A stretch of 64,000 bases of DNA, taken from assembly GCA_028278525.1 (NCBI GenBank), contig JANQEE010000062.1:1-64000 (forward strand), written 5' to 3'. The stretch comes from Minwuiaceae bacterium (GTDB lineage Bacteria; Pseudomonadota; Alphaproteobacteria; Minwuiales; Minwuiaceae). The position numbers and the translations under genes are program-made. The stretch's first letter is position 1; every line of letters begins with the position of its first letter. Positions 6,234 through 60,898 of this stretch are shown here, piece by piece. The notes beneath the pieces are model-generated. The model was not told the origin of the DNA, did no database searches, and saw nothing but the letters and a program-made list of their open reading frames with translations.

Positions 6234-8465
6234 ATGGCTACATTGAACGCCAATACATCGATTTCGATGGATGACGCGGAATTTCTGGATCTGTCGTGGT
6301 TCGACCTCGAGATTGACCTCACGCTATCCGACACGGACATAACCCTGGACAACGGCTACGGCGAGATAGAGCAGTTGTCCGGCAGCTTCGTCGTGGATCC
6401 CGCCAATCCGCTCAACCCGGACGGCACCGTCAATGTGACCGGCGGCACGGTTACCGGCTACCACGCCTCGATCGACTTCGAGACCCAATTCACCCTCGAC
6501 GATCTCAACGTCGATGCGGTGCAGGCCGCGTCCTTTATCAACGAAAGCAACGGCCCGGCCGTCGCCGCGCTGTTTCTGGCCGGCGACGATACGGTGGTCG
6601 GCAGCGATCAGAGCGATACGCTGCTGGGCTTTGCCGGCAACGACGAGATTTTCGGCATGACCGGCAATGACGTTCTGGACGGCGGCGCCGGCGACGACGT
6701 GCTCGATGGCGGCGCGGGTGCCGACACGGTCAATGGCGGCGCGGGCAATGACACGGCGGTGTTCGTCGTCGGTCAGCTGGGTCAGGCCGATATCTACGAC
6801 GGCGGCGTCGACACCGATACGCTGCGCATCGAGCTGACGTCGGCGCAGCACAGCGACCCCGCGATCCTGGCGGACCTGGAAGCGCTCGAGACCTTCATCG
6901 CGGAAAACAACGATTCGACCACCGCGGCCGGCGCGAGCCAGATGTTCGCCAACCTCGGTCTGCGGGTCAGTAACTTCGAGGCGCTCGAGATCTTCGTCGA
7001 CGGTAAGCCGCTCGGCGAAAATTCGGCCCCGACCGACATTCAGATGACCGGCGGCACGGTCGAAGAGAACAGCGCGGCGGGCACGGTGGTCGCCGCGCTT
7101 TCGGCGGTCGACCCGGACGCGGACGAGACCTTCTCCTACCGCCTGGTCGAAAACGGCGGCGGGCGGTTCGCCCTGGTCGGCAGCCAGATCGTGGTGGCCG
7201 AGGGCGCGGTGCTCGACTTCGAGACCACGCCGACCATCGACGTCCTGGTCGAAGTGACCGACAGCGCCGACAACGTTTTCCAGAAAACGCTGACGATTTC
7301 GCTCGGCGATGTCGGGGAAATCGTCGGCACGTCGGGCAACGACCGGCTGAACGGCACCGACGGTAACGACGTCATCGACGCCGGCGACGGCAACGACCGC
7401 ATCAGCGGTCGCGACGGCGACGACACCATCCTCGGCGGCGCCGGCAACGACCGGATCAGCGGCAACGACGGCGACGATACCATCGACGCCGGCACCGGCA
7501 ACGACCGCGTCTATGCCGGCGACGGCGACGACACGGTGATCGCCGGCGATGGCAACGACCGTGTCTACGGCTGGGACGGCGACGACACCATCGACGGCGG
7601 CGACGGCAACGACTACCTGAGCGGCGGCGACGGTAACGACACCCTGCTCGGCGGCGACGGCAACGACCGTCTGAGCGGCGGCGACGGGGACGACATCCTC
7701 GACGGCGGTACCGGCAACGACCGGATGAGCGGCGGCTGGGGCGACGACATCGTCGACGGCGGTGACGGCAACGACTATCTGTCCGGCAGTTGGGGTAACG
7801 ACACCCTGAACGGCGGCGAGGGTAACGACTACCTGCACGGCGGCTCCGGCGACGACGAGCTCAACGGCGGCGCGGGCAATGACGTGATGCGCGGCGGTTG
7901 GGGCGACGACGTCGTGAACGGCGGCGACGGCGACGATTACATGACCGGCTACTTCGGCGACGACGTCATGAACGGCGGCGACGGCGACGACCGCATAATC
8001 GCCGGTTCGGGCGAGGATACCGTCGATGCCGGCGACGGCAACGACTATGTCAGCGGCGGTTGGGGCGACGACATCGTGAACGGCGGCGCGGGCAACGATC
8101 ACCTGCGCGGCTCTTCCGGCGACGACGTTGTGAACGGTGGCGACGGTAACGACTACATCGACGGCGGTTCCGGCGACGACATCGTGAACGGCGGCGCGGG
8201 CGACGACTATCTGCGCGGCGGCTACCGCGGCGACGATACCTTCGTGTTCGAAAAGGGCTTCGGCAACGACTACGTGGCCGATTTCCGCGGCGGCGACGTG
8301 CTGGACTTCAGCGATTTCGAGATCACCTTCGACGATCTGACGCTGACCCAGGACGGCCGCGACACGGTGATCACCGTCGACGGCTTCGAAGACGACAGCG
8401 TCCGTCTCCGGCGCGTCGATGCCGACGACCTGGATCCGTTCAGCGACTTCATTCTGATCGCCTGA
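6234..8465 (+). CDS. RTX calcium-binding protein with cadherin-like domain
   Basis: 743 residues. The N-terminal ~130 residues are acidic and unrecognised. A first RTX block (LLGFAGNDEIFGMTGND onward) is followed by a spacer, then a cadherin-like repeat around NSAPTDIQMTGGTVEENSAA to LDFETTPTIDVLVEV. A long array of some 35 GGxGxDxUx-type nonapeptides (GNDYLSGGDGND and variants) forms a calcium-stabilised beta-roll. The end, FGNDYVADFRGGDVLDFSDF to DDSVRLRRVDADDL, is typical of the secretion-signal region of type I substrates. It is expected to be secreted to the surface or medium; no type I secretion genes lie in this window. ATG 6234 follows AGAGGG. Confidence 0.88.
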   Translation: MATLNANTSISMDDAEFLDLSWFDLEIDLTLSDTDITLDNGYGEIEQLSGSFVVDPANPLNPDGTVNVTGGTVTGYHASIDFETQFTLDDLNVDAVQAASFINESNGPAVAALFLAGDDTVVGSDQSDTLLGFAGNDEIFGMTGNDVLDGGAGDDVLDGGAGADTVNGGAGNDTAVFVVGQLGQADIYDGGVDTDTLRIELTSAQHSDPAILADLEALETFIAENNDSTTAAGASQMFANLGLRVSNFEALEIFVDGKPLGENSAPTDIQMTGGTVEENSAAGTVVAALSAVDPDADETFSYRLVENGGGRFALVGSQIVVAEGAVLDFETTPTIDVLVEVTDSADNVFQKTLTISLGDVGEIVGTSGNDRLNGTDGNDVIDAGDGNDRISGRDGDDTILGGAGNDRISGNDGDDTIDAGTGNDRVYAGDGDDTVIAGDGNDRVYGWDGDDTIDGGDGNDYLSGGDGNDTLLGGDGNDRLSGGDGDDILDGGTGNDRMSGGWGDDIVDGGDGNDYLSGSWGNDTLNGGEGNDYLHGGSGDDELNGGAGNDVMRGGWGDDVVNGGDGDDYMTGYFGDDVMNGGDGDDRIIAGSGEDTVDAGDGNDYVSGGWGDDIVNGGAGNDHLRGSSGDDVVNGGDGNDYIDGGSGDDIVNGGAGDDYLRGGYRGDDTFVFEKGFGNDYVADFRGGDVLDFSDFEITFDDLTLTQDGRDTVITVDGFEDDSVRLRRVDADDLDPFSDFILIA

Positions 8466-12703: not shown

Positions 12704-12826
12704 AATGCCGCGCGCAATACGACCGTCGACGCTGCCGAAATGGGAAAACCCCATTGAAGCAACCTGTTCCGGTGGGATCTCGACGCGGTCTAGGGTGTAA
12801 GATCTCCCAACGTGCCGTCCCACCGC

Positions 12827-12894
12827 GTCATTCCGGCGAAGGCCGGAATCCAGGACGGACGGTTGTTATGGATTCCGGCCTCCGCCGGAATGAC
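12827..12894. repeat. Paired inverted GTCATTCCGGC repeat, copy A
   Basis: A unit GTCATTCCGGCGAAGGCCGG followed by AATCCA, then its inverted partner ending CGCCGGAATGAC about 20 bases later. It is itself a hairpin and the whole forms a larger one. Related copies lie at 19799, 20197 and 20932. It sits downstream of the cyclase gene. Confidence 0.85.
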
Positions 12895-12945
12895 TGTGTA
12901 GAGGGCGCCGCATCCCGACTAGGCCCTTAGGCGCCTCGCGAACCG

Positions 12946-19776: not shown

Positions 19777-19798
19777 CGAGGCAGACCCCACCCACACG

Positions 19799-19866
19799 GT
19801 CATTCCGGCGTAGGCCGGAATCCATAACAACGGTCCGGTCTGGATTCCGGCCTACGCCGGAATGAC
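19799..19866. repeat. Paired inverted GTCATTCCGGC repeat, copy B
   Basis: Same structure as copy A: GTCATTCCGGCGTAGGCCGG, a ~20-base middle, and an inverted partner ending CGCCGGAATGAC. It lies between the ppk2 stop codon and the GIY-YIG gene and could act as a bidirectional terminator. Confidence 0.85.
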
Positions 19867-19883
19867 TTTGTCGGCTAGGCTGG

Positions 19884-20111: not shown

Positions 20112-20196
20112 GGCGGTAGGGTCGTCGGATTGGGCGGCGGGTACAAGCGCCTTGTCGTCATTTCGGCGAAGGGCGCCACCCCACCACCCCCACAGA

Positions 20197-20264
20197 GTCA
20201 TTCCGGCGAAGGCCGGAATCCATAACAGCGGTCCATCCTGGATTCCGGCCTTCGCTGGAATGAC
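20197..20264. repeat. Paired inverted GTCATTCCGGC repeat, copy C
   Basis: Same structure as copies A and B, with one change in the right unit (TTCGCTGGAATGAC). It lies upstream of the GIY-YIG gene and about 90 bp before the VUT transporter start. Confidence 0.85.
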
Positions 20265-20354
20265 GCCATGGGCACATCGCGCACCCCCATTAACACCGCC
20301 GCCCTGCGGTGCTATACGGCCCCGTCCGTCCAACCGTGCCAAAGGAAAGCCGCC

Positions 20355-21001: not shown

Positions 21002-21763
21002 TCAAAAATCCTTCACCAGCCGCGTCGTCTCCGGGTCCAGCATCCCCGCGATCGTCGCCTCGGTCTCCAGGTCCAGCGCCCGGTTGATGTCGGTCACCGC
21101 CCCCTGGTTCAGCACCCGCTTCATCGCGCGCACCGACAGCGGCGGCAACCGCCCAAGCCGCACCGCGACCGACCGCGCCTCCTCCATCAGCCGGTCGTCG
21201 CCGACCACCCGCCACGCCACCCCCAGTTCCTTGAGCGCCGCGGCGTCGTACGTCTCCCCCAGCAACAGCATCTCCCGCGCCTTGTTCAAGCCCACCAGCG
21301 CGGGCAGCAGCGACGTCACCGCGCCGGTGACGAACAGGTTCAGCGACACCTCCGGAAAGAAGCCCTTCGCGCTTTCCGCCCAGATCGGAAAGTCGCAATT
21401 GATCGCCCATTCGAACCCGCCGCCGACCGCCCAGCCGTTGATCGCGCCGACGACCGGCTTGCCCCCGAACACGATCGCCCGCGTCGCCCGCTGGATCGCG
21501 GTCACCGCCTCCCGCGCCTCCGCCTCGTTTTCGGGATGCCGATGCTCGTGCCGGTCGTCCCCCGCGCAAAACGCCCGCCCCGTCCCGGTAAACACGATCG
21601 CCCTGGTGGCCGGGTCCCCATTGGCGTCGTCGAAGGCCACCGCCACCTCGTCGATCAATCGCCGGTTCATGGCGTTCAGGCTATCCGGCCGGTTCAACGC
21701 GATGGTCCGCACCCCGTTCTCGTCGACATCGCTCGCAACGGTCTCATACTGAAATTCGCTCAC
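21002..21763 (-). CDS. Enoyl-CoA hydratase/isomerase family protein
   Basis: 253 residues of the crotonase superfamily, acting on acyl-CoA thioesters. Motifs: ALNRPDSLNAMNRRL, the first oxyanion loop FCAGDD, and the second oxyanion turn AVGGGFEWAINCD, followed by FFPEVSLNLFVTGA. The usual hydratase glutamate pair is only partly recognisable, so an isomerase or hydrolase role is possible. GTG 21763 is the start, preceded by GGGAGGACAGGGGC. A duplicate of its 5' end and upstream flank lies at 23387-23598. It is not next to other beta-oxidation genes. Confidence 0.85.
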   Translation of the reverse strand: MSEFQYETVASDVDENGVRTIALNRPDSLNAMNRRLIDEVAVAFDDANGDPATRAIVFTGTGRAFCAGDDRHEHRHPENEAEAREAVTAIQRATRAIVFGGKPVVGAINGWAVGGGFEWAINCDFPIWAESAKGFFPEVSLNLFVTGAVTSLLPALVGLNKAREMLLLGETYDAAALKELGVAWRVVGDDRLMEEARSVAVRLGRLPPLSVRAMKRVLNQGAVTDINRALDLETEATIAGMLDPETTRLVKDF

Positions 21764-21985
21764 GCCCCTGTCCTCCCGGGTTGCTTTTCCCCCGGCCCGC
21801 GACGGCTGGCGCCACCATCGTCGCGCCGCCGCCGTCCGGGTCCAGCGCCTAGCGTGGGGGAGGCGCAATTACGGGACGCGACATCGAACGCAATCCCGAT
21901 GCCCATCGGCCGGCCAGCGTCTTTCGCAGGCGCCGCGGAACGGGCCCGCTTCACTCGAATTGTCGCGGTGGCGAGGTCATACGAA

Positions 21986-22017
21986 ACCGAGCCGACTGAA
22001 GGATCAATCGGCTCGGT
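21986..22017 (-). terminator. Terminator-like hairpin after PEP-CTERM gene 2
   Basis: ACCGAGCCGA (21986-21995) pairs perfectly with TCGGCTCGGT (22008-22017) over a 12-base loop. In the minus direction it is followed by TTTCGT. It lies 25 bp after the PEP-CTERM gene 2 stop codon. Confidence 0.6.
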
Positions 22018-22041: not shown

Positions 22042-22929
22042 CTAGGCGGCGCTGCGCCGGCGGCGCCAGGTTATGGCGCCAAGGCCCGCCAGGCCCAACC
22101 CGAACAGGGCGAGCGTCGCGGGCTCCGGCACGTCGGCGAACGGGTCGACCTCGATCACGGCCTCATTTAGGTCGTCGGCGACAAGCAGGGTCCGGCTCAC
22201 CGGATCGAACTCCAGGCCTTCCGGATCGTCGAAGCCCGGAATCGAAAACGACTGGATCAGCGCGCCGGCCGTCGTGATCTCATAGATCATGCCGGTGCCG
22301 GTGCTGTCGTCGGCGAAGAAGATATTGCCCGTCAGCGGATCGAAGGTGATGCCCTCGGGTTCGTCGACGTCCAAGCCGAACAGGACCGTCGTGATCAGCG
22401 TCGACACCACGTTTCCGGCGGCATTGAACTCGTAGATTGTTTCGTCACCGTCGTCGGCGACCCAGAAATTGCCGCTACCCGGCTGAATGGCCACGCCGTC
22501 GGCATCGCCGGACGGCGGATCGGTGACGATCCGGACCCCGGCGCCGACAAGGCTGTCGGTGTTGATGTTGTATTCGTGCAGTCCCGAGGCCGGCCCTGGC
22601 TCGGAATTCGACAGCAGGGCGTTGCCGTTGCCGAGGAACGTTACGCCCTCGACGCCGTCGAGCGCGACCGTGTCGGTATCGACGACCGTCGATCCGTCGC
22701 GGGAGACCTGGACGATCTCGCTTATGATCTGGCCGTTCGTCTCGCCCGTCGCCGTGCTGGAAACGAGCAGCAGGTCGCCGGTCGGGGTGATGGCGATGCC
22801 TTCCGGACCGTCGTTGATGATCCCGGCGGTGCTGAATGTGTTCAGGATTGTCGCCGCGCCGGCCTGGGCGGGTAACAGTGCGGCGCCCACGATCACGGCG
22901 GCGATTAAGCTGTTGCGTTGGACCCTCAT
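22042..22929 (-). CDS. PEP-CTERM sorting-domain protein 2 (beta-propeller-like)
   Basis: 295 residues. Signal peptide MRVQRNSLIAAVIVGAALLPAQAGA; C-terminal PEP-CTERM signal ADVPEPATLALFGLGLAGLG, then ITWRRRRSAA. Between them are repeated segments of the form GPEGIAITPTGDLLLV, GVEGVTFLGNGNALL, ADGVAIQPGSGNFWVADDG, EPEGITFDPLTGNIFFADD and DPEGLEFDPVSRTLLVADD, five or six blades of an NHL/SdiA-like beta-propeller. It would be exported and processed by an exosortase encoded elsewhere. A hairpin terminator follows; two copies of a shared upstream element lie 166-296 bp before the start. Confidence 0.88.
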   Translation of the reverse strand: MRVQRNSLIAAVIVGAALLPAQAGAATILNTFSTAGIINDGPEGIAITPTGDLLLVSSTATGETNGQIISEIVQVSRDGSTVVDTDTVALDGVEGVTFLGNGNALLSNSEPGPASGLHEYNINTDSLVGAGVRIVTDPPSGDADGVAIQPGSGNFWVADDGDETIYEFNAAGNVVSTLITTVLFGLDVDEPEGITFDPLTGNIFFADDSTGTGMIYEITTAGALIQSFSIPGFDDPEGLEFDPVSRTLLVADDLNEAVIEVDPFADVPEPATLALFGLGLAGLGAITWRRRRSAA

Positions 22930-23266: not shown

Positions 23267-23386
23267 GAATTACAGGGACGGTATACTTAACGAAGCTGGC
23301 GGTGCTGGGCTGGCCAATCGCGCGGCGCTCAGGGATCGTGCGTAGTGACCGAAAGGTGAGAGTGAAGTGCACTGTCCCTGTAATTC
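23267..23386. mobile_element. 120-bp MITE-like element, copy 1
   Basis: Terminal inverted repeats: GAATTACAGGGACGGTATAC at the left, and the reverse complement of the right end reads GAATTACAGGGACAGTGCAC. The interior (CTGGCGGTGCTG, CCAATCGCGCGGCGCTCA) encodes nothing. It cuts off a duplicated enoyl-CoA hydratase gene at its right end. A diverged second copy lies at 25623-25743. The ends resemble sequences often found beside IS200/REP-associated transposases, but no transposase is present. Confidence 0.7.
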
Positions 23387-23598
23387 CAATCGTCCCCCGC
23401 ACAAAACGCCCGCCCCGCCCCGGTAAATACAATCGCCCGCGTGGCGTCATCCGCATTGGCGTCGTCGAACGCCACCGCCACCTCGTCGATCAACCGCCGG
23501 TTCATGGCGTTCAGGCTGTCCGGCCGGCTCAACGCGATGGTGCGAACGCCGTTGTCGTCGACGACGCTCGTAACGGTGTCGTACTGAAAAGCGCTCAC
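23387..23598 (-). pseudogene. 5' fragment of a duplicated enoyl-CoA hydratase gene
   Basis: The first ~70 residues (VSAFQYDTVTSVVDDNGVRT, SLNAMNRRLIDEVAVAFDDAN, AIVFTGAGRAFCAGDD) closely match the intact gene at 21002-21763, and the similarity continues into its upstream flank to about 23715. It stops at the FCAGDD oxyanion loop, where the MITE-like element begins; the frame then ends inside the element at 23329. The rest of the gene is gone, so no enzyme can be made. Confidence 0.85.
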
Positions 23599-23925
23599 GC
23601 TCCTGTTCTCCCTGGCTACTTTTCCTTCTCCTCGGCCTGCAGCCGACGACGCCACCATCGTCGCGCCGTCGATTGTCCGGGTCCAGTACCCGACTCGGGG
23701 CATCTTGCGCATTTTCGGGAAGCAACTCCTAATTCAGACCGATTCCGCGAAACGCCTCAACTTCTTGCCAATTGACCTCGGCACAACCATGCAAAACGTC
23801 CGCCTAAAGTAAAGGTCATCCGCAGGCATCTGATCTGCCAGTATCCAACAATCAAAAGAAACCGAAGCACCTTGTCCGATACTATTTGGAAGTCACTAGC
23901 CACAAACCATGCCGAACGTTCCGCT

Positions 23926-25350
23926 TCAGCCATCTCTGGATGAAGCTGCCCGAGCGCTTACAGTCTGTATATGTTCGTCGATTGTTTCCTCTAAGAAGGA
24001 ATGAAAATCCTCGATCACGTCGTGGGTCTTTTGGTTCCATGTAAGCTTATACCATCGACGATTGACTTCATGTCCTAGTGGTTCGAATACACCCCAATCG
24101 CTGAGAGCGTGACGTGTAACCACCTCAAAGACGTAGCAGGTCTCTAAGCTCGGCGCGCAGGAAACGATCAATGAGAAGCGCTTCAAGCTTTGAAATTTCG
24201 GCGTGAAGGTCAGCTTCAACTGGACTGCGTCCATTCTACAATTCAAATGTAGATCGTACCTCGTAACCATTTCACTGGACGGCAAAAAAGAAGACAATCC
24301 AAATCGGAGCTGGTTCAATGGATCAACTGTTCTTTCGCGTGAAATCTCCGCTGTTACAAAATTATCTGGTCGCGTTTCTTTATGCAGAACTCGCGTGATG
24401 AACGTTCTGGCATCCGCCTCATTAAAACCATCATGTATAACATGTTCGTGATCGTAAAAACTGGCAAAGTCGCTGGGCTTTTCAAACGCAGAAATGATGC
24501 TGTTAAAAAAATCTGAGATAAAGTTCTGAGCGGCTTCCTTTTCGACGTAACCTTCTTCCAAGATTTTTATTTGGTCGAGAGTGCTGCGCGAAACTTCATA
24601 GTTCTGTGCGTTCGCATTCTCGGATGCGTCTGAGTCAAATTCTTCCTCACGCTTCGCCCGCAGTAGATTCAGCCTGTCAGCACTATCGGCGAATACCTCA
24701 CGTCCAGTTCCTTGAGTCACAAAGTGAGGAGTCTGAGTATCGTTATCGAGATACTGATCGCGTAAGGCGTTTATTATGTCCGAGTAGTAAACTGCACCAG
24801 TCCTTTTAGACAGCGCCGCCCCGTAGAAGCTGTCGGTGAAATCGCTAAGTGGATCGCCTGTGAGAGATGATTGATTGTCCAGGCATGATGCGATTTGAAT
24901 GAGACTGTTAAACCCTTCCTTAGGTTCAGGCAAGAATTCGCCATCAGACTTCAACAGAAGCGTACCTGAACTACAAGCGTCGACAACTTTGACCACAAGT
25001 TCTGCGTTCGTGGCTTTCAGAAGTGTGTGGAGTTCCGAATGCGAGAGGCCGGTCTCATTGGGGCGAGCCGCGTCGAAATCCGTCGCGTTGAAAAAGAATT
25101 CGTCAGATTTCTGGCAACCGTGGCCGGAAAAATAGAAGAAAAGCTCTTTGACCACGCCCGCATCTTCCAGAAAGGTACGAATGGCATCTTTGAGGTCTGC
25201 TGCTTTTTTGTTGGTCAGCGTTTTGACGGAGTCGTATTTGTTCGTTGCATTCAGTAAGCCGGATATGGCGGTTACATCGGCCAGGCAGCATTCCAAATTA
25301 GGAGAGCTTTGATATTCAGAGTTGCCAATTACGATTGCTATGTTTCCCAC
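23926..25350 (-). CDS. Caspase-like (peptidase C14) protein with unknown C-terminal region
   Basis: 474 residues. The N-terminal ~200 form a caspase fold: AIVIGNSEYQ, a DVTAISGLL helix, then the catalytic dyad His77 in FYFSGHGCQ and Cys126 in VVDACSSGT; both are intact. The remaining ~270 residues contain a charged helical stretch (ISDFFNSIISAFEKPSDFASF) and beta-rich segments with no recognised family. Bacterial caspase-like proteases often act in stress or phage-triggered death, with the C-terminal part as sensor or partner. The start is GTG 25350 after GGAG. The gene is clearly AT-richer than its surroundings, which suggests transfer. Nothing is co-directional next to it. Confidence 0.82.
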   Translation of the reverse strand: MGNIAIVIGNSEYQSSPNLECCLADVTAISGLLNATNKYDSVKTLTNKKAADLKDAIRTFLEDAGVVKELFFYFSGHGCQKSDEFFFNATDFDAARPNETGLSHSELHTLLKATNAELVVKVVDACSSGTLLLKSDGEFLPEPKEGFNSLIQIASCLDNQSSLTGDPLSDFTDSFYGAALSKRTGAVYYSDIINALRDQYLDNDTQTPHFVTQGTGREVFADSADRLNLLRAKREEEFDSDASENANAQNYEVSRSTLDQIKILEEGYVEKEAAQNFISDFFNSIISAFEKPSDFASFYDHEHVIHDGFNEADARTFITRVLHKETRPDNFVTAEISRERTVDPLNQLRFGLSSFLPSSEMVTRYDLHLNCRMDAVQLKLTFTPKFQSLKRFSLIVSCAPSLETCYVFEVVTRHALSDWGVFEPLGHEVNRRWYKLTWNQKTHDVIEDFHSFLEETIDEHIQTVSARAASSRDG

Positions 25351-25622: not shown

Positions 25623-25743
25623 GTAATTAAAGTGACAGCGTTACTAACTAAACTGGCGGTGCTGCACTCACCAATCACGCGGCGCTCACGCATCGTGTGT
25701 TGTGGCTGAAGGATGCGAGTAAAGTATACTGTCCCATTAATCC
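25623..25743. mobile_element. 120-bp MITE-like element, copy 2 (diverged)
   Basis: Matches copy 1 in order and spacing: AACTGGCGGTGCTG, CCAATCACGCGGCGCTCA, CGCATCGTG and the right end AAAGTATACTGTCCC. The left terminal repeat is decayed (AATTAAAGTGACAGCGTTAC). It lies between the caspase gene and the unknown gene to its right, in their divergent intergenic region. Confidence 0.65.
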
Positions 25744-25990
25744 CATTTTTGACGAAGTGGCGAGCAATGCAGAAGGGAAAAGATAGCCATTGGCAGCATT
25801 CGAGAACTAAGCAAATTATATCTATTCTGTATCATGTTCCGAGTTCGAAACGCAGACTTCGCATAATTTGAGGGCTAAAATCAAACTTTCGTTACACAAG
25901 AAATGCCAATGGTATTATGAAAAAAGCTGGTGGACCGACAGCTGGAAATTGTTTCTTGCCGCTTCGGGCCTTACCACGCGGGATTCAATC

Positions 25991-27025
25991 ATGCCAAGTA
26001 AAGGATTTGAGGTTACATATAGCTCCTGGCCTTTAGACTGGCACTGGAGAGAAGACGAAAGTCGAGACCGGTTGTCGACTTTGGCGATTTTCTACGACAA
26101 AGTGTTTCTACCAGCTCCCATTGGAATGGACGAGTACACCACACCGAAATCTTGGTCCTATGATGAGTGGATAGAGCGGTTACCAGCGGGGGGAAGCAAA
26201 GGTAAAACAATCGGTCAAGCAGAAGCATCGGTAGTCATGACCGTGGGGTTGGGAAGCTTTGAAGACTGGAGAAATAAGAATAGGTCTCTATTCGATGCTA
26301 ATGTGCTCGAATTCTTACCTATACCAGATAAAATAACGGATGATTTGTCGGATGAATTGAAGCGCCAAGTTTGGTCTAAGCTCAACGAATCGTCACCTCA
26401 GAAGTATCGACAGATTCCAGAAGTCCCGTCCACTGTTTTTGCGCACTTTGACGGCACATTAGCTTTTGCCGTTCATACGGTATGTGGTCGCAGCGAGGGG
26501 CGGGAAATCTACCTGCCTGACAATAACGATAGATCGACCGAGAGGCTTACTGGACTCTTGGCTATCTCCCTTTTTCAGCATTACGTTCCTGTTCTACGTA
26601 GCCTTACGGCTGAACAAATATTGGAAGTCAGAGAGTACGTTCAAGATACGCGCGAGGGCTTCACAGATTACTTGGCGGGATTTGCAGACGAACTCGAGCA
26701 ACGACTAGCGCATGGCACTAGAAGCGATCTCGAAGAGGCCGGAGAGATGGTAAAAAGACGTCTCAGGGCAGAGTACAATACTTTCCGGCGACAAATTCGA
26801 TCAAAACGTGGAAAATTTTGGGCGAATGTACTCGATACAGGTGCTAAAGCGCTGCGCATAGATGCGACTCCGTGCACTCCAAAGTTTTATGGAGAGATTC
26901 TAGACTTAGCCTTGGGTCTCACGGGTAGCTCGTTGGAACGGATAGCAGAGCAACAATCAACAAAGAACCAAGCGATGCTCTTCCTAGGAAGTCTTGAAAA
27001 GTCTGTTGCACGACAAGCTGAATGA
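25991..27025 (+). CDS. Unknown protein of the accessory island (about 344 aa)
   Basis: Starts MPSKGFEVTYSSWPLDWHWR and soon has LAIFYDKVFLPAPIGMDEY, then mixed helix with LLAISLFQHYVPVLRSLTAEQ, a long charged helical stretch (FTDYLAGFADELEQRLAHGTR to EMVKRRLRAEYNTFRRQI) and a small C-terminal hydrophobic region. No signal peptide or clear membrane span; no family is recognised. The early Y-D-x-V-x-L-P pattern is reminiscent of N-termini of proteins of unknown function in mobile islands. ATG 25991 (GCGGGA upstream) is preferred; the frame is open back to TTG 25868. AT-rich like the caspase gene, from which it is divergent. Confidence 0.7.
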   Translation: MPSKGFEVTYSSWPLDWHWREDESRDRLSTLAIFYDKVFLPAPIGMDEYTTPKSWSYDEWIERLPAGGSKGKTIGQAEASVVMTVGLGSFEDWRNKNRSLFDANVLEFLPIPDKITDDLSDELKRQVWSKLNESSPQKYRQIPEVPSTVFAHFDGTLAFAVHTVCGRSEGREIYLPDNNDRSTERLTGLLAISLFQHYVPVLRSLTAEQILEVREYVQDTREGFTDYLAGFADELEQRLAHGTRSDLEEAGEMVKRRLRAEYNTFRRQIRSKRGKFWANVLDTGAKALRIDATPCTPKFYGEILDLALGLTGSSLERIAEQQSTKNQAMLFLGSLEKSVARQAE

Positions 27026-27178: not shown

Positions 27179-27280
27179 CTAAACCGACATCGCTTCCCCC
27201 GCCTCGCGAAACCGCCGCTCTAGGCTCGCCAGAAACCGCAACCAGAACCGCCCGCCCTCGGCCAGCCTTTGCGCAGGTCG
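27179..27280 (-). pseudogene. Third, most diverged copy of the pseudo-receiver gene 3' end
   Basis: In the matching frame it reads AQRLAEGGRF, LRFLASLERRFREAGEA and stops at TAG 27179-27181. This corresponds to the last ~30 residues of the gene at 30356-31225 (AQWLSEGERFRPRFLASLERR). Similarity is clear but with many substitutions, more than in the copy at 28811. No upstream part of the gene is present. Confidence 0.75.
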
Positions 27281-27573
27281 GGCGCGGCTTCGCCATTTGC
27301 TGTAACAAAAGGCCGTTAAATCAGCCCCAGTACCGTCGCCGTACCGGTCTTGGCCGGCTGATCGGCCCGTAACCGCGGCCGATTTTACACTTTGCGGATA
27401 CCCGTGTTAGGGTCCCGGCACTCAATCACCAATCCGATTTCGGCGCGGGTCCGACGCGGTCGGGCGGCGGCGCAGTGCGTTTCATGCGCCGGGGTCATGT
27501 GTGGTCCGCCGGGAACGATGCCTCGTTTCCGGTCGGTATCGCACATCCAGTTCGTAACCGAAGGAGGGATGTA

Positions 27574-28443
27574 ATGAAGGCCGATGGCGAGTTTGACGAG
27601 ATCAACGAAGCCAAGGCGAGTATGGATCATATCTACGACCAGCCCGATCCACGCGCGTATTTTTCCGAACTGCGAAAGCTCCACTACAACATTCCCGGCG
27701 CGGCCAAGCCGATATTCGAAAAGCTGATTTCCCGCCTCCGGCGCCGCCGCGACGAGCAGGTTCGCGTCCTCGATCTCGGATGCTCCTACGGCGTCAACGC
27801 CGCCCTCCTGAAGCACGACCTGACGATGCCGGACCTCTACGACCATTGGGGACAGCAGCGGTTCGAACATGCCTCGCCGGACGAAGTCGTCGAATACGAC
27901 AAGCGCTTCTTCGGCAATCTCGCCGAAGACGAAGACCTTGAAGTGATCGGGCTGGACCAGGCCGAAAGCGCGCTCGAATTCGCGGAAGACGTCGGCCTGT
28001 TGGACGAGTCCCTGGCCGTCAATCTGGAAACCGAGCCCCTGCCGGACTCCGCGAAACAGGATCTCGCCGCCGTCGACTTGATCGTCTCGACGGGGTGCGT
28101 GGGCTACGTCACGGAAAAGACGTTCGAGCGGCTGCTGCCGGCGGTGCTGTCCGGCAGCCCTCCGTGGCTGGCGAATTTCGTGCTTCGGATGTTTCCCTTC
28201 GATGCGATCGAAGCGGCCCTGGCGGAGCGGGGTTACGTGACCGAGAAGCTGGAAGGCCGGACGTTCCGACAACGCCGGTTCGCCTCGGGCGACGAACGGC
28301 AACAGGTTTTGGACCAGTTGCGCGATCAGGGCCTGGACCCGGCGAGGAAGGAAGCGGACGGCTATTTGCATGCCGAATTCTATCTTTCCCGCCCGAAGGC
28401 AGAGGCCGCCCGAATGCCGATCGACCAACTGCTTGTCGTGTGA
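27574..28443 (+). CDS. Class I SAM-dependent methyltransferase-like protein
   Basis: 289 residues. A helical N-terminus (YDQPDPRAYFSELRKLHYNIPG) precedes the Rossmann-type AdoMet site: motif I RVLDLGCSYGVNAALLK, then VIGLDQAESAL as the acidic motif II strand and VDLIVSTGCVGYVTEKTFERLL at the position of the catalytic-face motif. The C-terminal part (RGYVTEKLEGRTFRQRRF) completes the fold. The substrate is unknown. ATG 27574 follows AAGGAGGGATGTA, an excellent ribosome site. It is GC-rich like the core genome but lies between the second and third copies of the pseudo-receiver gene end, so it counts as island cargo. Confidence 0.8.
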   Translation: MKADGEFDEINEAKASMDHIYDQPDPRAYFSELRKLHYNIPGAAKPIFEKLISRLRRRRDEQVRVLDLGCSYGVNAALLKHDLTMPDLYDHWGQQRFEHASPDEVVEYDKRFFGNLAEDEDLEVIGLDQAESALEFAEDVGLLDESLAVNLETEPLPDSAKQDLAAVDLIVSTGCVGYVTEKTFERLLPAVLSGSPPWLANFVLRMFPFDAIEAALAERGYVTEKLEGRTFRQRRFASGDERQQVLDQLRDQGLDPARKEADGYLHAEFYLSRPKAEAARMPIDQLLVV

Positions 28444-28469
28444 CCGCGTCCGGCGCTTTCCGGGGCGCC

Positions 28470-28717
28470 AGCAGACTGTTGAAAAAAGCGCTTTGTGGCC
28501 TGGATGCTTCGAGACGCGCCCCTTCGGGCCGCTCCTCAGCATGAGGGCTAGCATGTTGACAACACAACGACCTCATCCTGAGGAGGCCCGCAGGGCCGTC
28601 TCGAAGCCTCATCCTGAGGACGCCCAAAGGGCCGTCTCGAAGCCTCATCCTGAGGAGGCCCAAAGGGCCGTCTCGAAGGATGGGCAACCGCTCAGGTGCC
28701 CTTTTCAGCAGCCTGCT
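28470..28717. repeat. Composite repeat element with three 36-bp tandem units and inverted ends
   Basis: The ends AGCAGACTGTTGAAAA (28470-28485) and, inverted, AGCAGGCTGCTGAAAA (28702-28717) match in 14 of 16 bases. Inside are an inverted unit (about 28502-28547, CTTCGAGACGCGCC to CTCAGCATGAGG) and three back-to-back 36-bp units at 28571-28606, 28607-28642 and 28643-28678, each CCTCATCCTGAGGA to CCGTCTCGAAG. There are no spacers. Relatives of the unit lie at 41593-41697. Confidence 0.8.
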
Positions 28718-28810
28718 AACTCTTCAAAATTGCTCTAGGCGAAGAACCAATTTCTTGACCGGTAAACGGACCTTGCCGATAGCCGGGTCGACACGGCCCG
28801 GCCCGGCCGT

Positions 28811-28981
28811 CTAACCCGCCGCCGCTTCCCCCACCTCGCGGAACCGCCGCTCCAGGCTCGCCAGGAACCGCGGCCGGAACCGCTCGCCCTCGGCCAGCCA
28901 TTGCGCGAATTCGGGCCCGGCGCTTTCCGAGGCGCTGCGGAACGGGCCGGAATTGACCGGCGCGTCCCGGTCATCCGGCAT
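28811..28981 (-). pseudogene. Second copy of the pseudo-receiver gene 3' end
   Basis: From the TAG stop (28811-28813) the sequence matches 30356-30501 over 146 bases with only four differences by eye and no gaps, then goes on as a diverged homologue (VERMPDDRDAPVNSGPF against IEQMLANWDELINSGPF). An ATG at 28981 would give a 56-residue peptide with only the C-terminal region of the gene. It may be a relic or a short expressed peptide. Confidence 0.8.
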
Positions 28982-29127
28982 CCGCTCGACCTTCGTTCCG
29001 TTTGCGGCCGATTTCTCTAAAACAATTCAATAGTTGCATTTATGTGGTAATATGTGATTTAGAGTAGAAAATAATTAGCTGATTTGATGTTGCCGACATA
29101 ATCGCTTGCTGAGCGAGGTGCAAAGCA

Positions 29128-30336
29128 ATGGGAGCGGAGAATCAGGCGAAGGAACCCGGTTTTTTCCGGCGGACGTTTTTTAGAGCGCGCGAAACAGATT
29201 CGGACGAACACGTAAGGGCGTTCGAGTACACCTGGCTGCAGCGCATCGTGGCGAAACTCCCCGGCGGCAGGGTCTCCGGGATTCATCTCCAGGAAGCGAG
29301 GGAGCGGTACATTTCCCTGTCGCGCGAAGTCGGAAATTACGTGCAGCGCTACAATTGCAATGGCGAACAAGGCCGGCCCGAGGGAGGTGGTCCGCACGAC
29401 GGAGCGGCCGGCGACGTGGAAGCCGGGGAGAAATGCGTCCACCTGAAAGCATGCAGGGCGACTTTGGATGAAATCTGGCGTAGCTATCTGGAAAGAAAAG
29501 AAGAGAAACTAAACTATGCATGGCGCGAATTGACGCGCGTGCGCATCATGCTGGTGGAGCGAATCCTCCCGCCCGAGAAATTGGTTCAGCAAGTCGATTT
29601 CTGCCGCGAGGAGGCCAACCGGCTGGCGGTTTCCAGCGACACTGAAGTAAGCGATATGCTTCAGCGGCTCGCGGAGGCGCTGGACGAATCCGGACAAAGC
29701 GTGGACAGCACGCAACGCACGAGGCGTTTGGTGAGAGCGTTGCTTGAGAGATTCAACACCATTCGTACAAACCGCATTCACCACCAATACCTTACCATCA
29801 GAACCTATAAATACGCATTGGCGGTGCTGTTGGTGCTGTCCGTGGTCCTTATCAGGAACGAAGACCAATTGGTCGACAATACGAAAAGCGTAGATTCCAC
29901 CGTCGTAGCGGTTGAAACGGGCTTCTGCGCTCCGCTCTTTGCGGGTGTGGATTCAGGAGAAGAAAATACCGGAACGTTGGGGAAACTATACTGCTTTGGC
30001 GTGGTGTTTCCGATGCACCGTTTGGAGGTTCTTCTGGCGGGAAACGTCCTGGCTTTTGTCTATTTCGCGGGCTTGATCGGTGGTTTCTTCAGCATTGCGA
30101 CACGGGCTCGGAGCGCCGACTATGTTCCGGGCGAGGACGCGTACATCCTGTGGTACGTCTTGACCAAGCCTTTGGTTGGCGCTTCGGGCGCGATCATTCT
30201 GTTCGTTCTGTTCCAGGGCGGCCTGGTCGAACTCAATTTGCTCAACGATCTCGGAGCTGAACCGAGTCCCGAAGTCTTCGGTTTTGCTTTCTTGGCCGGT
30301 TTCTCCGAGCGGATCGTATTTCCGAGTTTTCGATAA
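29128..30336 (+). CDS. Unknown membrane protein with helical cytoplasmic region, C-terminus probably cut short
   Basis: 402 residues. The first ~225 are charged and helical (ARERYISLSREVGNYVQRY, YLERKEEKLNYAWRELTRVR), likely coiled-coil-forming. Three membrane helices follow: YALAVLLVLSVVLI (~230), VLLAGNVLAFVYFAGLIGGFF (~305) and LVGASGAIILFVLFQGGLVEL (~355). The pattern ending KPLVGA then FAFLAGFSERIV is known from membrane proteins of unknown function, which usually go on a little further; here it stops as FPSFR, 20 bp from the repeated pseudo-receiver 3' end, so the gene seems truncated. AT-richer than the core. ATG 29128 follows GAGGTG. Confidence 0.7.
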   Translation: MGAENQAKEPGFFRRTFFRARETDSDEHVRAFEYTWLQRIVAKLPGGRVSGIHLQEARERYISLSREVGNYVQRYNCNGEQGRPEGGGPHDGAAGDVEAGEKCVHLKACRATLDEIWRSYLERKEEKLNYAWRELTRVRIMLVERILPPEKLVQQVDFCREEANRLAVSSDTEVSDMLQRLAEALDESGQSVDSTQRTRRLVRALLERFNTIRTNRIHHQYLTIRTYKYALAVLLVLSVVLIRNEDQLVDNTKSVDSTVVAVETGFCAPLFAGVDSGEENTGTLGKLYCFGVVFPMHRLEVLLAGNVLAFVYFAGLIGGFFSIATRARSADYVPGEDAYILWYVLTKPLVGASGAIILFVLFQGGLVELNLLNDLGAEPSPEVFGFAFLAGFSERIVFPSFR

Positions 30337-30355
30337 CGGGTCAGTATTAGACGCC

Positions 30356-31225
30356 CTAACCCGCCGCCGCTTCCCCCACCTCGCGGAACCGCCGCTCCAG
30401 GCTCGCCAGGAACCGCGGCCGGAACCGCTCGCCTTCCGACAGCCACTGCGCGAATTCGGGCCCGGCGCTTTCCGAGGCGCTGCGGAACGGGCCGGAATTG
30501 ATCAGCTCGTCCCAGTTGGCCAGCATCTGCTCGATCTCGATCCGCGTCAGGATGCCGGTTTCCAGCAGCACGATGCGCAAATAGTCGCCGAAGCAGACCT
30601 TGACCTTCAAGTTGGTGCGCGAGCAGTGCTCGACCGCGCCGACGACATAGCCCAAGAGGCCCAGTTTCTCGATCACCGTGCGGCCGAAATAGTCGGAGGC
30701 GTAGTCCCGGGCGCTGCCGACGAAGGCGGAGATCTCGGCCACGTTGTCGTCGGTCTCGCTGGACAGCCGGCCCTGGGCGGCCAGGTTGGCCACCGTGCGC
30801 GCGCCGTCCATCGCCATCAGCATCTGGTGGCGCACCGCGCCGGGCAGGCGGCGGTGGGAGCCGCGGGTCCAGAACCGGACCCGTTCGGTCAGCGGGTTCA
30901 GCGGCCCGGCCTTCAGCAGAAAGTCGTCGACGCCGACCGACAGCCACTGCTCGAAATCGTCGATCGAGAACGACGCGGTGAAATAGATCATCGGCACACG
31001 CTCGCCCAGCAGGTCGCGGGCGCGGCGGCCGAAATCCGCGGCGTCCATGGCCTCGGGCCGGGGCTCCAGCACGAACAGGCGCGGCACGTTGTTGACGATC
31101 AGGCTCAGGCCCTGGTTCGGCTCGGTCGTCGACAGCACGAAGAAGCCGAGCCGCCTCAAGCGCTTGTGCAGCGCCTTGCGTTGCGGCTCGTCGGGCACCG
31201 TCAGGACAAGGAGTTGGCGGCCCAT
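30356..31225 (-). CDS. Pseudo-receiver (degenerate response regulator) protein with C-terminal helical domain
   Basis: 289 residues. Residues 1-125 have the fold pattern of a receiver domain (LLVLTVPDEPQRKALHKRL, RLFVLEPRPEA, VPMIYFTASFSIDDF, GVDDFLLKAG), but the phospho-acceptor position holds Glu54 instead of Asp and the N-terminal acidic pair is poor, so it is probably not phosphorylated normally. The C-terminal half is helical and unrecognised, ending FLASLERRFREVGEAAAG. Its last part is present three times in the region (also 28811 and 27179), with foreign-looking genes between the copies. It is divergent from the DUF123 gene. Confidence 0.75.
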   Translation of the reverse strand: MGRQLLVLTVPDEPQRKALHKRLRRLGFFVLSTTEPNQGLSLIVNNVPRLFVLEPRPEAMDAADFGRRARDLLGERVPMIYFTASFSIDDFEQWLSVGVDDFLLKAGPLNPLTERVRFWTRGSHRRLPGAVRHQMLMAMDGARTVANLAAQGRLSSETDDNVAEISAFVGSARDYASDYFGRTVIEKLGLLGYVVGAVEHCSRTNLKVKVCFGDYLRIVLLETGILTRIEIEQMLANWDELINSGPFRSASESAGPEFAQWLSEGERFRPRFLASLERRFREVGEAAAG

Positions 31226-41531: not shown

Positions 41532-41592
41532 CCATAGACAGGTGAGGCGACGGCGGTCAATGCGCCGTTTGACGGGCTATCGGGCGTATGGC

Positions 41593-41697
41593 CATCCTTC
41601 GAGACGGCGCTTCGCGCCTCCTCAGGATAAGGTCATCGTGTTTTTAGTAAGGTCGCCTCATGCTGAGGAGCCTGCGCAGCAGGCGTCTCGAAGCATC
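41593..41697. repeat. Inverted pair of CTTCGAGAC-type repeats
   Basis: ATCCTTCGAGACGGCGC to CTCCTCAGGATAAGG (41593-41632) faces an inverted relative, CCTCATGCTGAGGAGC to GTCTCGAAGCATCC (41656-41697). It is the same repeat family as the tandem units at 28571-28678. It lies between hutI and the transport-hut operon. Confidence 0.75.
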
Positions 41698-41733
41698 CCG
41701 TCGACCAAGCGACTGCCTTCTTTACTGGACAGG

Positions 41734-43020: not shown

Positions 43021-43099
43021 CCCGGCCACCCGCTCCCCCGTCCCAACCACCCCAAGGGTACCCTCATGGGTGGTTGGGACGGGGGAGCGGGTGGCCGGG
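43021..43099. repeat. Long palindromic repeat, copy 2 (32-bp perfect arms)
   Basis: The 32-base left arm (43021-43052, starting CCCGGCCACCCGCTCCCCCG) is perfectly complementary to the right arm (43068-43099); the 15-base loop contains GGGTACCC. It is the best-preserved of three copies (124-180, 60818-60898). It lies in the promoter region between divergent hutI and hutF. Confidence 0.9.
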
Positions 43100-57682: not shown

Positions 57683-58738
57683 TCAGGGGTTTACGTCGAC
57701 GCCGACGGCGGCGCGCACGCCGTCGAACCCGTCGCGCTTGAGCAGCGCCGCCAGATCGCGGCCGATCGCCGCGACCAGGCCGGGGCCCTGGTAGATCAGC
57801 GCCGTGTAGAGCTGCACCAGCGATGCGCCGGCGCGGATCTTGGCGTAGGCGTCGGCCCCCGACCCGACTCCGCCGACCCCGACCAGGGTGATCCGTCCGC
57901 CGGTCAATCGGTACATCCGGCGCAACGTCTCCGTCGAGGGCGCGAACAGCGGTGCGCCGCTCAAACCGCCGGACTGTTCCTTGTGCCGCCCGCGCAAATC
58001 AGGCGGCCGGGCGATGGTCGTGTTCGAGATGATCAGCCCTTCCGTCCCGTGCTCCACCGCCACGGCCGCGATGTCGGCCAGCTCCGCTTCCGTCAGGTCG
58101 GGCGCGATTTTCAGGGCGATCGGGATCGCCAGGCCGGCGGCGGTCCGCGCGTCCTCCAGCCGTCCGAGCAACTCCTCCAGTTCCGCCTTGTTCTGCAGGC
58201 CGCGCAGGCCCGGCGTGTTCGGCGACGACACGTTGACGGTGACGTAATCCGCGTAGGGCCCAAGCGCCTTCAGGCCCGCGATGTAATCGCCGATGCGGTC
58301 GTCGCTGTCCTTGTTGGCGCCGAGATTGACGCCGACGATGCCGCGCCGCGGGCGGGCGCGGAGCCGCGTTTCCGCCGCCGCCATGCCCTGGTTGTTGAAA
58401 CCCAGCCGGTTGATGACGGCGCGGTCTTCCGGTAGCCGAAACAGCCGCGGTTTCGGATTGCCGGCCTGCGGCCGTGGCGTGATGCTGCCGACCTCGACGA
58501 AGCCGAAGCCCTGCCCGAGCATGGCGTCGGGGACTTCCGCGTTCTTGTCGAAGCCGGCGGCCAGGCCGATGGGATTCGGAAAGGTCAGGCCGCGGAACGG
58601 CACGTGCAGCACCGGGTCGTCCACCGTTTCGGTGCGGGGGACGAGGCCGCTCCGCAACGCCGCTATCGTCGCCCGGTGCGCGACCTCCGGCGGCAGCGCC
58701 CGAAGCAGCGGCGCGGCGGCGCGGAACAAATCGGTCAA
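57683..58738 (-). CDS. pyrD: Dihydroorotate dehydrogenase (quinone), class 2
   Basis: 351 residues. It oxidises dihydroorotate to orotate with FMN and passes electrons to quinone, the fourth step of pyrimidine synthesis. An N-terminal helical membrane-association part (LFRAAAPLLRALPPEVAHRATIAAL) marks class 2. FMN/substrate motifs: NPIGLAAGFDKN, FGFVEVGSITPRPQ, VNVSSPNTPGLR (catalytic Ser) and LVGVGGVGSG. The start is TTG 58738, overlapping the TGA of the DUF952 gene (ATTGA), with GGAG upstream; the longer frame is out of family. Confidence 0.95.
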   Translation of the reverse strand: MTDLFRAAAPLLRALPPEVAHRATIAALRSGLVPRTETVDDPVLHVPFRGLTFPNPIGLAAGFDKNAEVPDAMLGQGFGFVEVGSITPRPQAGNPKPRLFRLPEDRAVINRLGFNNQGMAAAETRLRARPRRGIVGVNLGANKDSDDRIGDYIAGLKALGPYADYVTVNVSSPNTPGLRGLQNKAELEELLGRLEDARTAAGLAIPIALKIAPDLTEAELADIAAVAVEHGTEGLIISNTTIARPPDLRGRHKEQSGGLSGAPLFAPSTETLRRMYRLTGGRITLVGVGGVGSGADAYAKIRAGASLVQLYTALIYQGPGLVAAIGRDLAALLKRDGFDGVRAAVGVDVNP

Positions 58739-59100: not shown

Positions 59101-59206
59101 GGCCGCACCCTAACCAAAGCGGATTGGTCTGAACAGATACAACGGCAGTGCCGGTAATAGCCTGCTGGTACTAGACTCCGAACGAATGTTGGTCGAACAT
59201 ATCGCC

Positions 59207-59839
59207 ATGCTGACCCACCAAGGCATATGGGCGGCGGTCGACGCACTGGCGGCCCAGAACGGTTTTACCGCGTCCGGATTGGCTAAGCGCGCCGGGCTGG
59301 ACGCGACCACCTTCAACAGAAGCAAGCGCACCTCACGGGATGGCAAGCCGCGCTGGCCGAGCACGGAAAGCGTTTCCAAAATCCTCGACGCGACCGGCTC
59401 GACGCTCGGCGACTTCGTTTCCCTGGTCGATCACGGCGGACAGGGCGACGGGCCGTTTCGCATTCCGGTTATCGGCTTCGGCCTGGCCGGCGACAACCGG
59501 TTCTTTACCGAGCACGGCGTCCCGCAAGGCACGGACTGGGACGAAGTGGCGTTTCCCGATATCGGCGATCCCAGCGCCTATGCCCTGGAAGTGACCGACG
59601 ACAGCATGTCGCCGGTCTATCGCGACGGCGATATCGTCGTCGTATCGCCGCAGGCGAACATCCGCCGCGGCGACCGGGTGGTCGTCAGGACGCTCGAGGG
59701 CGAAGTGATGGCCAAGCAGCTTCGCCGCAAATCCGCGCGCCGTATCGACCTGCAGTCCCTGAATCCGGACTATCCCGGCCGGGTGCTGGACATCGACGAG
59801 ATCGGCTGGCTGGCGCGCATCGTCTGGGCCAGCCAATAA
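59207..59839 (+). CDS. LexA/CI-like regulator with S24 peptidase domain
   Basis: 210 residues. The N-terminal helix-turn-helix-like part (GIWAAVDALAAQNGFTASGLAKRAGLD, TTFNRSKR) is followed by an S24 peptidase domain: Ser in TDDSMSPVYRDGDIV and Lys in EGEVMAKQLRR, with a candidate cleavage-site region FGLAGDN. Such regulators bind DNA and can be inactivated by self-cleavage or act as simple repressors. ATG 59207 is chosen since family members start at MLTHQGIWAAVD; ATG 59186 is the alternative. Read away from the DUF952-pyrD genes. Confidence 0.85.
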   Translation: MLTHQGIWAAVDALAAQNGFTASGLAKRAGLDATTFNRSKRTSRDGKPRWPSTESVSKILDATGSTLGDFVSLVDHGGQGDGPFRIPVIGFGLAGDNRFFTEHGVPQGTDWDEVAFPDIGDPSAYALEVTDDSMSPVYRDGDIVVVSPQANIRRGDRVVVRTLEGEVMAKQLRRKSARRIDLQSLNPDYPGRVLDIDEIGWLARIVWASQ

Positions 59840-60793: not shown

Positions 60794-60817
60794 GCGCTTA
60801 GAAGGTTTCGGGTGGTG

Positions 60818-60898
60818 CCGAGCCGACCCACTCCCCGTCCCAACCACCCCGAGGGTACCCTGTATGGGTGGTTGGGACGGGGGAGCGGGCCGGCTCGG
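60818..60898. repeat. Long palindromic repeat, copy 3
   Basis: Left arm (60818-60849) and right arm (60866-60898) are near-perfect inverted repeats; the outer parts CCGAGCCG/CGGCTCGG differ from copy 2 but still pair, so changes have compensated in the stem. The loop again contains GGGTACCC. It lies between convergent aminotransferase and lysS genes. Confidence 0.88.

Follow-up and report, generated by a model that had tools for sequence, protein, structure and literature searches.

The 3' end of one chromosomal gene is present three times, with unrelated genes between the copies, in a 64,000-nucleotide stretch of DNA from Minwuiaceae bacterium (assembly GCA_028278525.1, contig JANQEE010000062.1, positions 1 to 64,000; henceforth referred to as the window). 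The gene encodes a pseudo-receiver protein, and the order is decayed copy, cargo, younger copy, cargo, intact gene. The same anatomy is found at other genes of this genome; at one of them, an M24-peptidase gene, the site is empty in relatives, and the differences between young copies are mostly synonymous. The model that best accounts for these arrangements, and which we hold to be about evenly balanced between right and wrong, is the serial integration, by single crossovers, of circles that carry cargo together with a homologous gene end.

Copies of the pseudo-receiver gene end and the cargo between them

The features that make up this arrangement are as follows (GC3, GC content at third codon positions; SAM, S-adenosylmethionine; MITE, miniature inverted-repeat transposable element):

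30356–31225, minus strand: intact pseudo-receiver gene, an open reading frame (ORF) of 289 aa, whose 3' end (30356–30544) is copy c1
29001–30355, plus strand: cargo block 1, a single membrane-protein gene
29128–30336, plus strand: the membrane-protein gene of cargo block 1, 402 aa, GC3 0.66
28811–29000, minus strand: copy c2 of the pseudo-receiver 3' end, 190 nt, 91.6% identical to c1
27289–28810, plus strand: cargo block 2, a class I SAM methyltransferase gene (27577–28443), then a MITE-like repeat
27169/27179–27288, minus strand: copy c3 of the pseudo-receiver 3' end, decayed, 81.6% identical to c1 and 83.5% to c2

The original prediction, made from the letters alone, had described three copies, with four differences in 146 bases for c2, many differences in a copy at 27179–27280, and a divergence that rises with distance from the intact gene. 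All of this was borne out by alignment: c1 and c2 differ at 4 positions in the 144 nt counted from the stop codon, c3 is more diverged than c2, and the local alignment scores of 733 (c2) and 374 (c3) compare with a best score of 188 when 5,925 pieces of 171 nt were drawn at random from this genome. Across all 5.95 Mb of the genome, a search found the pseudo-receiver 3' end only at c1, c2 and c3. In all three the homology starts at the stop codon or no more than 10 nt from it. In c2, codons 243–290 are 97% identical to the intact gene and codons 229–242 (~40 nt) ~70% identical, beyond which the sequences are unrelated; in c3, the homology runs from ~10 nt past the stop codon up to about codon 253. 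The changes in c3 are biased from G/C to A/T and hit all codon positions equally, a pattern of neutral decay. The protein itself has a weak N-terminal match to Pfam Response_reg (1.5e-05, below the cut-off) and a C-terminus without known match. Two extensions of the family were considered and dropped: a candidate fourth decayed copy at 21906–22004 scored above shuffled sequences and within chance when compared with random pieces of the genome, and apparent similarity reaching far past the edges of c2 and c3 scored within chance for GC-rich DNA.

The membrane-protein gene lies between c1 and c2, and the methyltransferase gene with its composite repeat between c2 and c3, just as had been read from the sequence at the outset. 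The stop codon of the membrane-protein gene is 19 nt from that of the intact pseudo-receiver gene. No relatives of the membrane-protein gene were found in 385 genomes of the class, and it was absent from the plasmids searched; relatives of the methyltransferase gene turn up here and there in genomes as well as on plasmids, and one such relative sits among transposase genes. The GC3 of the cargo genes (0.66 for the membrane-protein gene, 0.78 for the methyltransferase gene) compares with 0.86–0.93 for resident genes.

Gene-end repeats at other genes and further features of the window

The corresponding loci, one in the window and one on another contig (C12) of the same genome, are:

21002–21763, minus strand: intact enoyl-CoA hydratase (ECH) gene; a second copy of its 5' end lies at 23390–23686
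23390–23686, minus strand: partial copy of the ECH 5' end, 297 nt, 84% identical, from source segment 21555–21845
C12:56729–57880: M24-peptidase gene, whose 3' end is repeated together with the small ORF after it

The ECH gene is separated from the copy of its 5' end by a PEP-CTERM gene (22042–22929), and the copy, whose differences are mostly synonymous, lies at the left edge of the island that also holds the pseudo-receiver copies. A scan for local direct repeats, which covered 2.37 Mb of the 5.95-Mb genome, revealed long direct repeats of gene ends at several genes, 120–490 nt long, 81–93% identical, variable in length and each limited to its own gene. The M24 gene end is present four times on C12 (locus C12:56729–84078), at 57769–58027 (c1, the intact gene), 59187–59370 (c2), 63212–63330 (c3) and 70184–70443 (c4), in the same order relative to its cargo as at the pseudo-receiver gene; the cargo between these copies amounts to 1.2, 3.8 (~53% GC) and 6.8 kb. 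We collected 80 related loci, 73 of them with enough downstream sequence for comparison. Upstream gene order around the M24 gene is common to about 30 of the 80, and in none of the 80 was a copy of the gene end or an M24 paralog found. In 17 of the 73 the downstream neighbour lies 73–784 nt away, and its homolog here, at C12:83200, is about 25 kb off. Because the neighbour is close in these relatives and none of the relatives has copies, roughly 25 kb, including the three extra gene-end copies, was added behind the M24 gene in this lineage. The comparison with relatives that the original prediction had called for came out in favour of insertion at this sister locus.

Similar repeats were found at further genes. 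In the interval C9:65287–66732, 232 nt from the 3' end of a gene for a GMC oxidoreductase are repeated (88% identity) around one low-GC membrane-protein gene, with intervening DNA of 48% GC. The C-terminus of GMC relatives is QR-stop or a close variant in 22 of 24; the displaced copy reads DWRATQR and the live gene DWRIE, which suggests that the incoming stretch ended short of the usual gene end, although the donor's own end may differ. In the interval C57:26184–30539, ~490 nt that reach from the 3' end of a TPR-type gene into the beginning of the following gene are duplicated around 3.4 kb, in which one gene of PEP-CTERM type and one of winged-helix type are found. Three partial copies of the region downstream of a tRNA-Met gene on contig C6 (L116:22–2776) separate a methyltransferase gene and a LysE-type gene; this locus is a classical tRNA island.

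The window's gene order, from left to right, is the ECH gene, the PEP-CTERM gene, the ECH 5'-end copy, a caspase-domain gene between two repeats, an orphan gene and c3, then the methyltransferase gene with the MITE-like repeat, c2, the orphan membrane-protein gene and the intact pseudo-receiver gene, followed by DUF123, dgt and hut genes. Three further features of the island are:

23926–25350, minus strand: caspase-domain gene (Peptidase_C14 6e-14; phrog_36966 1e-45), GC3 0.50
25868–27025, plus strand: orphan gene of low GC (GC3 0.46), beyond c3
28470–28723, strand not assigned: MITE-like element with terminal inverted repeats CAGCAGACTGTTGAAAAA ... CTTTTCAGCAGCCTGCTAA around three 36-nt repeats (CCTCATCCTGAGGA...)

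No relatives of the orphan gene were found in 372 genomes of the class, and among viral contigs there were none of the membrane-protein, orphan or pseudo-receiver gene. A relative of the MITE-like element is present as a piece at 41589–41711 in inverted orientation. The caspase gene is flanked by two degenerate ~100-nt repeats, 78% alike, at 23269–23392 and about 25630–25750, with palindromic ends AATTACAGGGAC...GTCCCTGTAATT; the pair (23288–23388 and 25645–25745) had been considered as a second pair of gene copies and was dropped, since the palindromic ends resemble a relic of MITE or repetitive extragenic palindromic (REP) type. Two palindromic REP-like families also occur in the window in both orientations, one at 123–190, 43021–43099 and 60817–60898 and the other at 12819–12899, 19785–19874 and 20183–20272, and a long array of diverged repeats spaced about 54 nt apart occupies 7325–8244.

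Origin of the copies and proposed mode of insertion

When a gene end is duplicated locally, the copy is expected to decay freely and the live gene to gain silent changes only. We therefore compared the observed differences with the split into synonymous and nonsynonymous changes expected under a simple model in which the dead copy is neutral and the live copy evolves with w = 0.1. For the GMC, ECH and M24 c1/c2 pairs, the proportion of synonymous differences (pS) was ~0.30 and that of nonsynonymous differences (pN) 0.05–0.07, and the model of local duplication and decay was rejected (combined p of 7e-5 for five young pairs; p of 0.004 for GMC alone). Local duplication would have left more amino-acid changes than the young pairs show; in all likelihood, therefore, the gene ends accumulated their differences in separate lineages and were brought together later, one of them coming in with the cargo. 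The same result bears on the earlier suggestion that the oldest insertion lies outermost: the decay pattern agrees with it, but divergence is no clean clock, because the differences in the younger copies are mainly synonymous and so largely older than the insertion.

Site-specific integrases act on a short, fixed core. The direct repeats of integrative mobilizable elements (IMEs) are generally 8–60 bp long (PMC5704250), dusA islands have att sites of 19–28 bp (PMC4482086), and the ssrA islands of Dehalococcoides have a 20-bp repeat and a recombinase module (PMC3146451). The edges of the pseudo-receiver copies differ (about codon 229–243 in c2 and about codon 253 in c3, the decay of c3 limiting the certainty of this difference), as do those of the M24 copies, which lie in gene coordinates at 57782 (c2), ~57810 (c3) and 57769 (c4), and at neither gene do the copies share a short att core of identical sequence and fixed position. 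The absence of an integrase, noted at the outset, was upheld: a whole-genome domain search found four PF00589 (tyrosine) and one PF00239 (serine) recombinase domains, all on other contigs and none on this one, and no integrase lies beside the gene-end scars in any block examined. No tRNA or RNA target was found within the window. Because the repeats are 100–500 nt long with edges that do not coincide, because the targets are unrelated genes hit at both 3' and 5' ends, and because recombinases are few and none is on the contig, the proposal that the pseudo-receiver gene end is an attachment-site-like hot spot is not supported.

The main rival would nevertheless explain the copies as remnants of site-specific elements, with att sites in gene ends and replacement ends carried along, that shed the genes for integrase and transfer and accreted in tandem in the manner of cis-mobilizable elements (CIMEs). 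Such accretion would leave copies and cargo in the order seen here, a 15-nt perfect block sits at the edge of M24 c2, and the tRNA-Met island is of the same kind. IMEs are also known to integrate in the 3' ends, and more rarely the 5' ends, of protein genes, CIME–IME accretion has been described (PMC5704250), and Dehalococcoides has serial ssrA-end repeats (PMC3146451). However, beyond the length of the repeats and the disagreement of successive edges at one gene, this account needs a separate integrase, none of which is left, for each of at least five unrelated protein genes, and the repeat on C57 extends past its gene into the next one; we consider it rather unlikely. Local events are quite improbable; under this view the gene region was duplicated in tandem, or template switching created a long target duplication, after which the copies decayed and cargo later arrived between them. 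The genome contains a fair number of partial local duplications, plain tandem paralogs among them, and the older copies (pseudo-receiver c3 and M24 c4) look neutral, but the synonymous excess of the young pairs contradicts decay after duplication, relatives are devoid of M24 copies and paralogs, and no cargo is seen to have a second copy beside it. We give very little credence to an artefact of assembly or binning, in which a metagenome bin contained two related haplotypes and their joining placed gene ends of two species in one contig. The nearly equal pS at three unrelated loci is what two species would give, and contamination is listed at 2.5%; against this, the fetched sequence has no runs of N, the junctions are sharp with an unrelated cargo side and hence no shared k-mer to cause a join, c3 and M24 c3 and c4 are decayed relics, and a mis-join would not typically give copies that are nested and ordered at a single locus.

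Scars of this kind recur at several unrelated genes and no integrase accompanies them, which argues for integration through shared sequence and not by a dedicated enzyme. Under the model of serial single crossovers, each cargo block would enter with 100–500 nt of the resident gene's end from a diverged relative, most likely in the form of a circle that recombines through a single homologous (RecA-type) crossover within the shared stretch; we infer the circle step and the role of RecA. The resident gene would come out of the crossover intact but chimeric, with its end supplied by the incoming DNA, and its former end, broken where homology stops, would be moved to the far side of the cargo. After repeated rounds, the cargo blocks would lie between gene-end copies that become older with distance from the intact gene. 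Insertion would be possible anywhere in the homology, and 3' or 5' gene ends would be what is found because insertions that disrupt the gene would be selected against. Recombination between any two copies would release a circle of cargo bearing one gene end, allowing cassettes to move among relatives without an integrase. With the earlier claim that repeated insertion regenerates the gene end, the anatomy agrees, as does the sister M24 locus with its empty site; the pseudo-receiver protein itself is at most 34% identical to its closest homologs, none of 14 such loci has copies of its own gene end, and no empty site emerges from the side of dgt, around which synteny is not conserved within the family. 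Serial insertion at the pseudo-receiver gene is therefore partly supported, by its anatomy and by sister loci of the same genome, and the locus presumably arose as the M24 locus did.

Several points weigh against this model. Its p-values for synonymous excess depend on the simple model described above, the 4 coding sites at which pseudo-receiver c1 and c2 differ are too few for testing alone, and neither the TPR-gene pair nor pseudo-receiver c3 has a synonymous excess. No circle, excision or recombination was observed, and no donor genome with the cargo beside the same gene end was found. Decay also blurs the edges of the older copies and, together with the 15-nt perfect block at one edge, is the reason why decayed site-specific elements stay the main rival.

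Known systems and meaning

One of the closest parallels is the displacement of C-terminal ends in rhs and mafB genes. Jackson et al. 2009 proposed a circle-and-crossover scheme for rhs genes and drew a parallel to mafB (PMC2935791); as here, strings of gene-end fragments of variable length lie downstream of an intact gene, with long direct repeats, low-GC cargo and serial insertion, and the proposed circular intermediate integrates by homologous recombination limited by its homology to the resident gene (PMC2935791). In contrast to those systems, in which the cargo is a new C-terminal tip and the products are polymorphic toxins, the resident gene here keeps its own end unchanged, the cargo consists of independent genes and there are several ordinary targets; nor does the pseudo-receiver gene resemble a polymorphic toxin, as it has only the weak receiver match and its copies share the same C-terminus, with no differing tips. 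Tandem accretion of CIMEs and IMEs likewise regenerates the target end, displaces the old one, leaves repeats between cargo blocks and includes decayed members without a recombinase (PMC5704250), whereas the repeats described here are 100–500 nt long with non-coinciding edges, the many targets are unrelated and the examined blocks have no recombinase. In the ssrA islands of Dehalococcoides, many serial 3'-end copies separate cargo downstream of the intact gene, but the 20-bp repeat marks a precise insertion position, a conserved serine-recombinase module is present and the target is an RNA gene (PMC3146451). The dusA-specific islands also provide a protein gene with a different end, in their case the 5' end, and displace the old one, but do so with short att sites and an adjacent dedicated integrase (PMC4482086). 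Merodiploids formed by transformation in pneumococcus are homology-driven duplications without a dedicated recombinase; unlike the present loci, they involve large chromosomal segments between repeats and no new cargo (PMC3784515).

Taken genome-wide, these loci may reflect an integrase-free stacking of foreign genes behind ordinary chromosomal genes, in which small circles of cargo plus a homologous gene end would integrate by single crossover and the ends they displace would provide homology that can be carried along in further excision and transfer between related species; we put this broader reading forward tentatively, as one somewhat more apt to fail than to hold. To our knowledge, the entry of single foreign genes into bacterial chromosomes without a transposase or integrase is largely unexplained. 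This genome, in which several unrelated genes bear one kind of scar and relatives of one such locus have the empty site, offers a definite answer that can be put to the test: the cargo brings the gene-end homology with it. If true, the displacement model of rhs and maf genes would extend to ordinary genes, and a displaced gene end behind foreign DNA would be a search signature usable on any genome.

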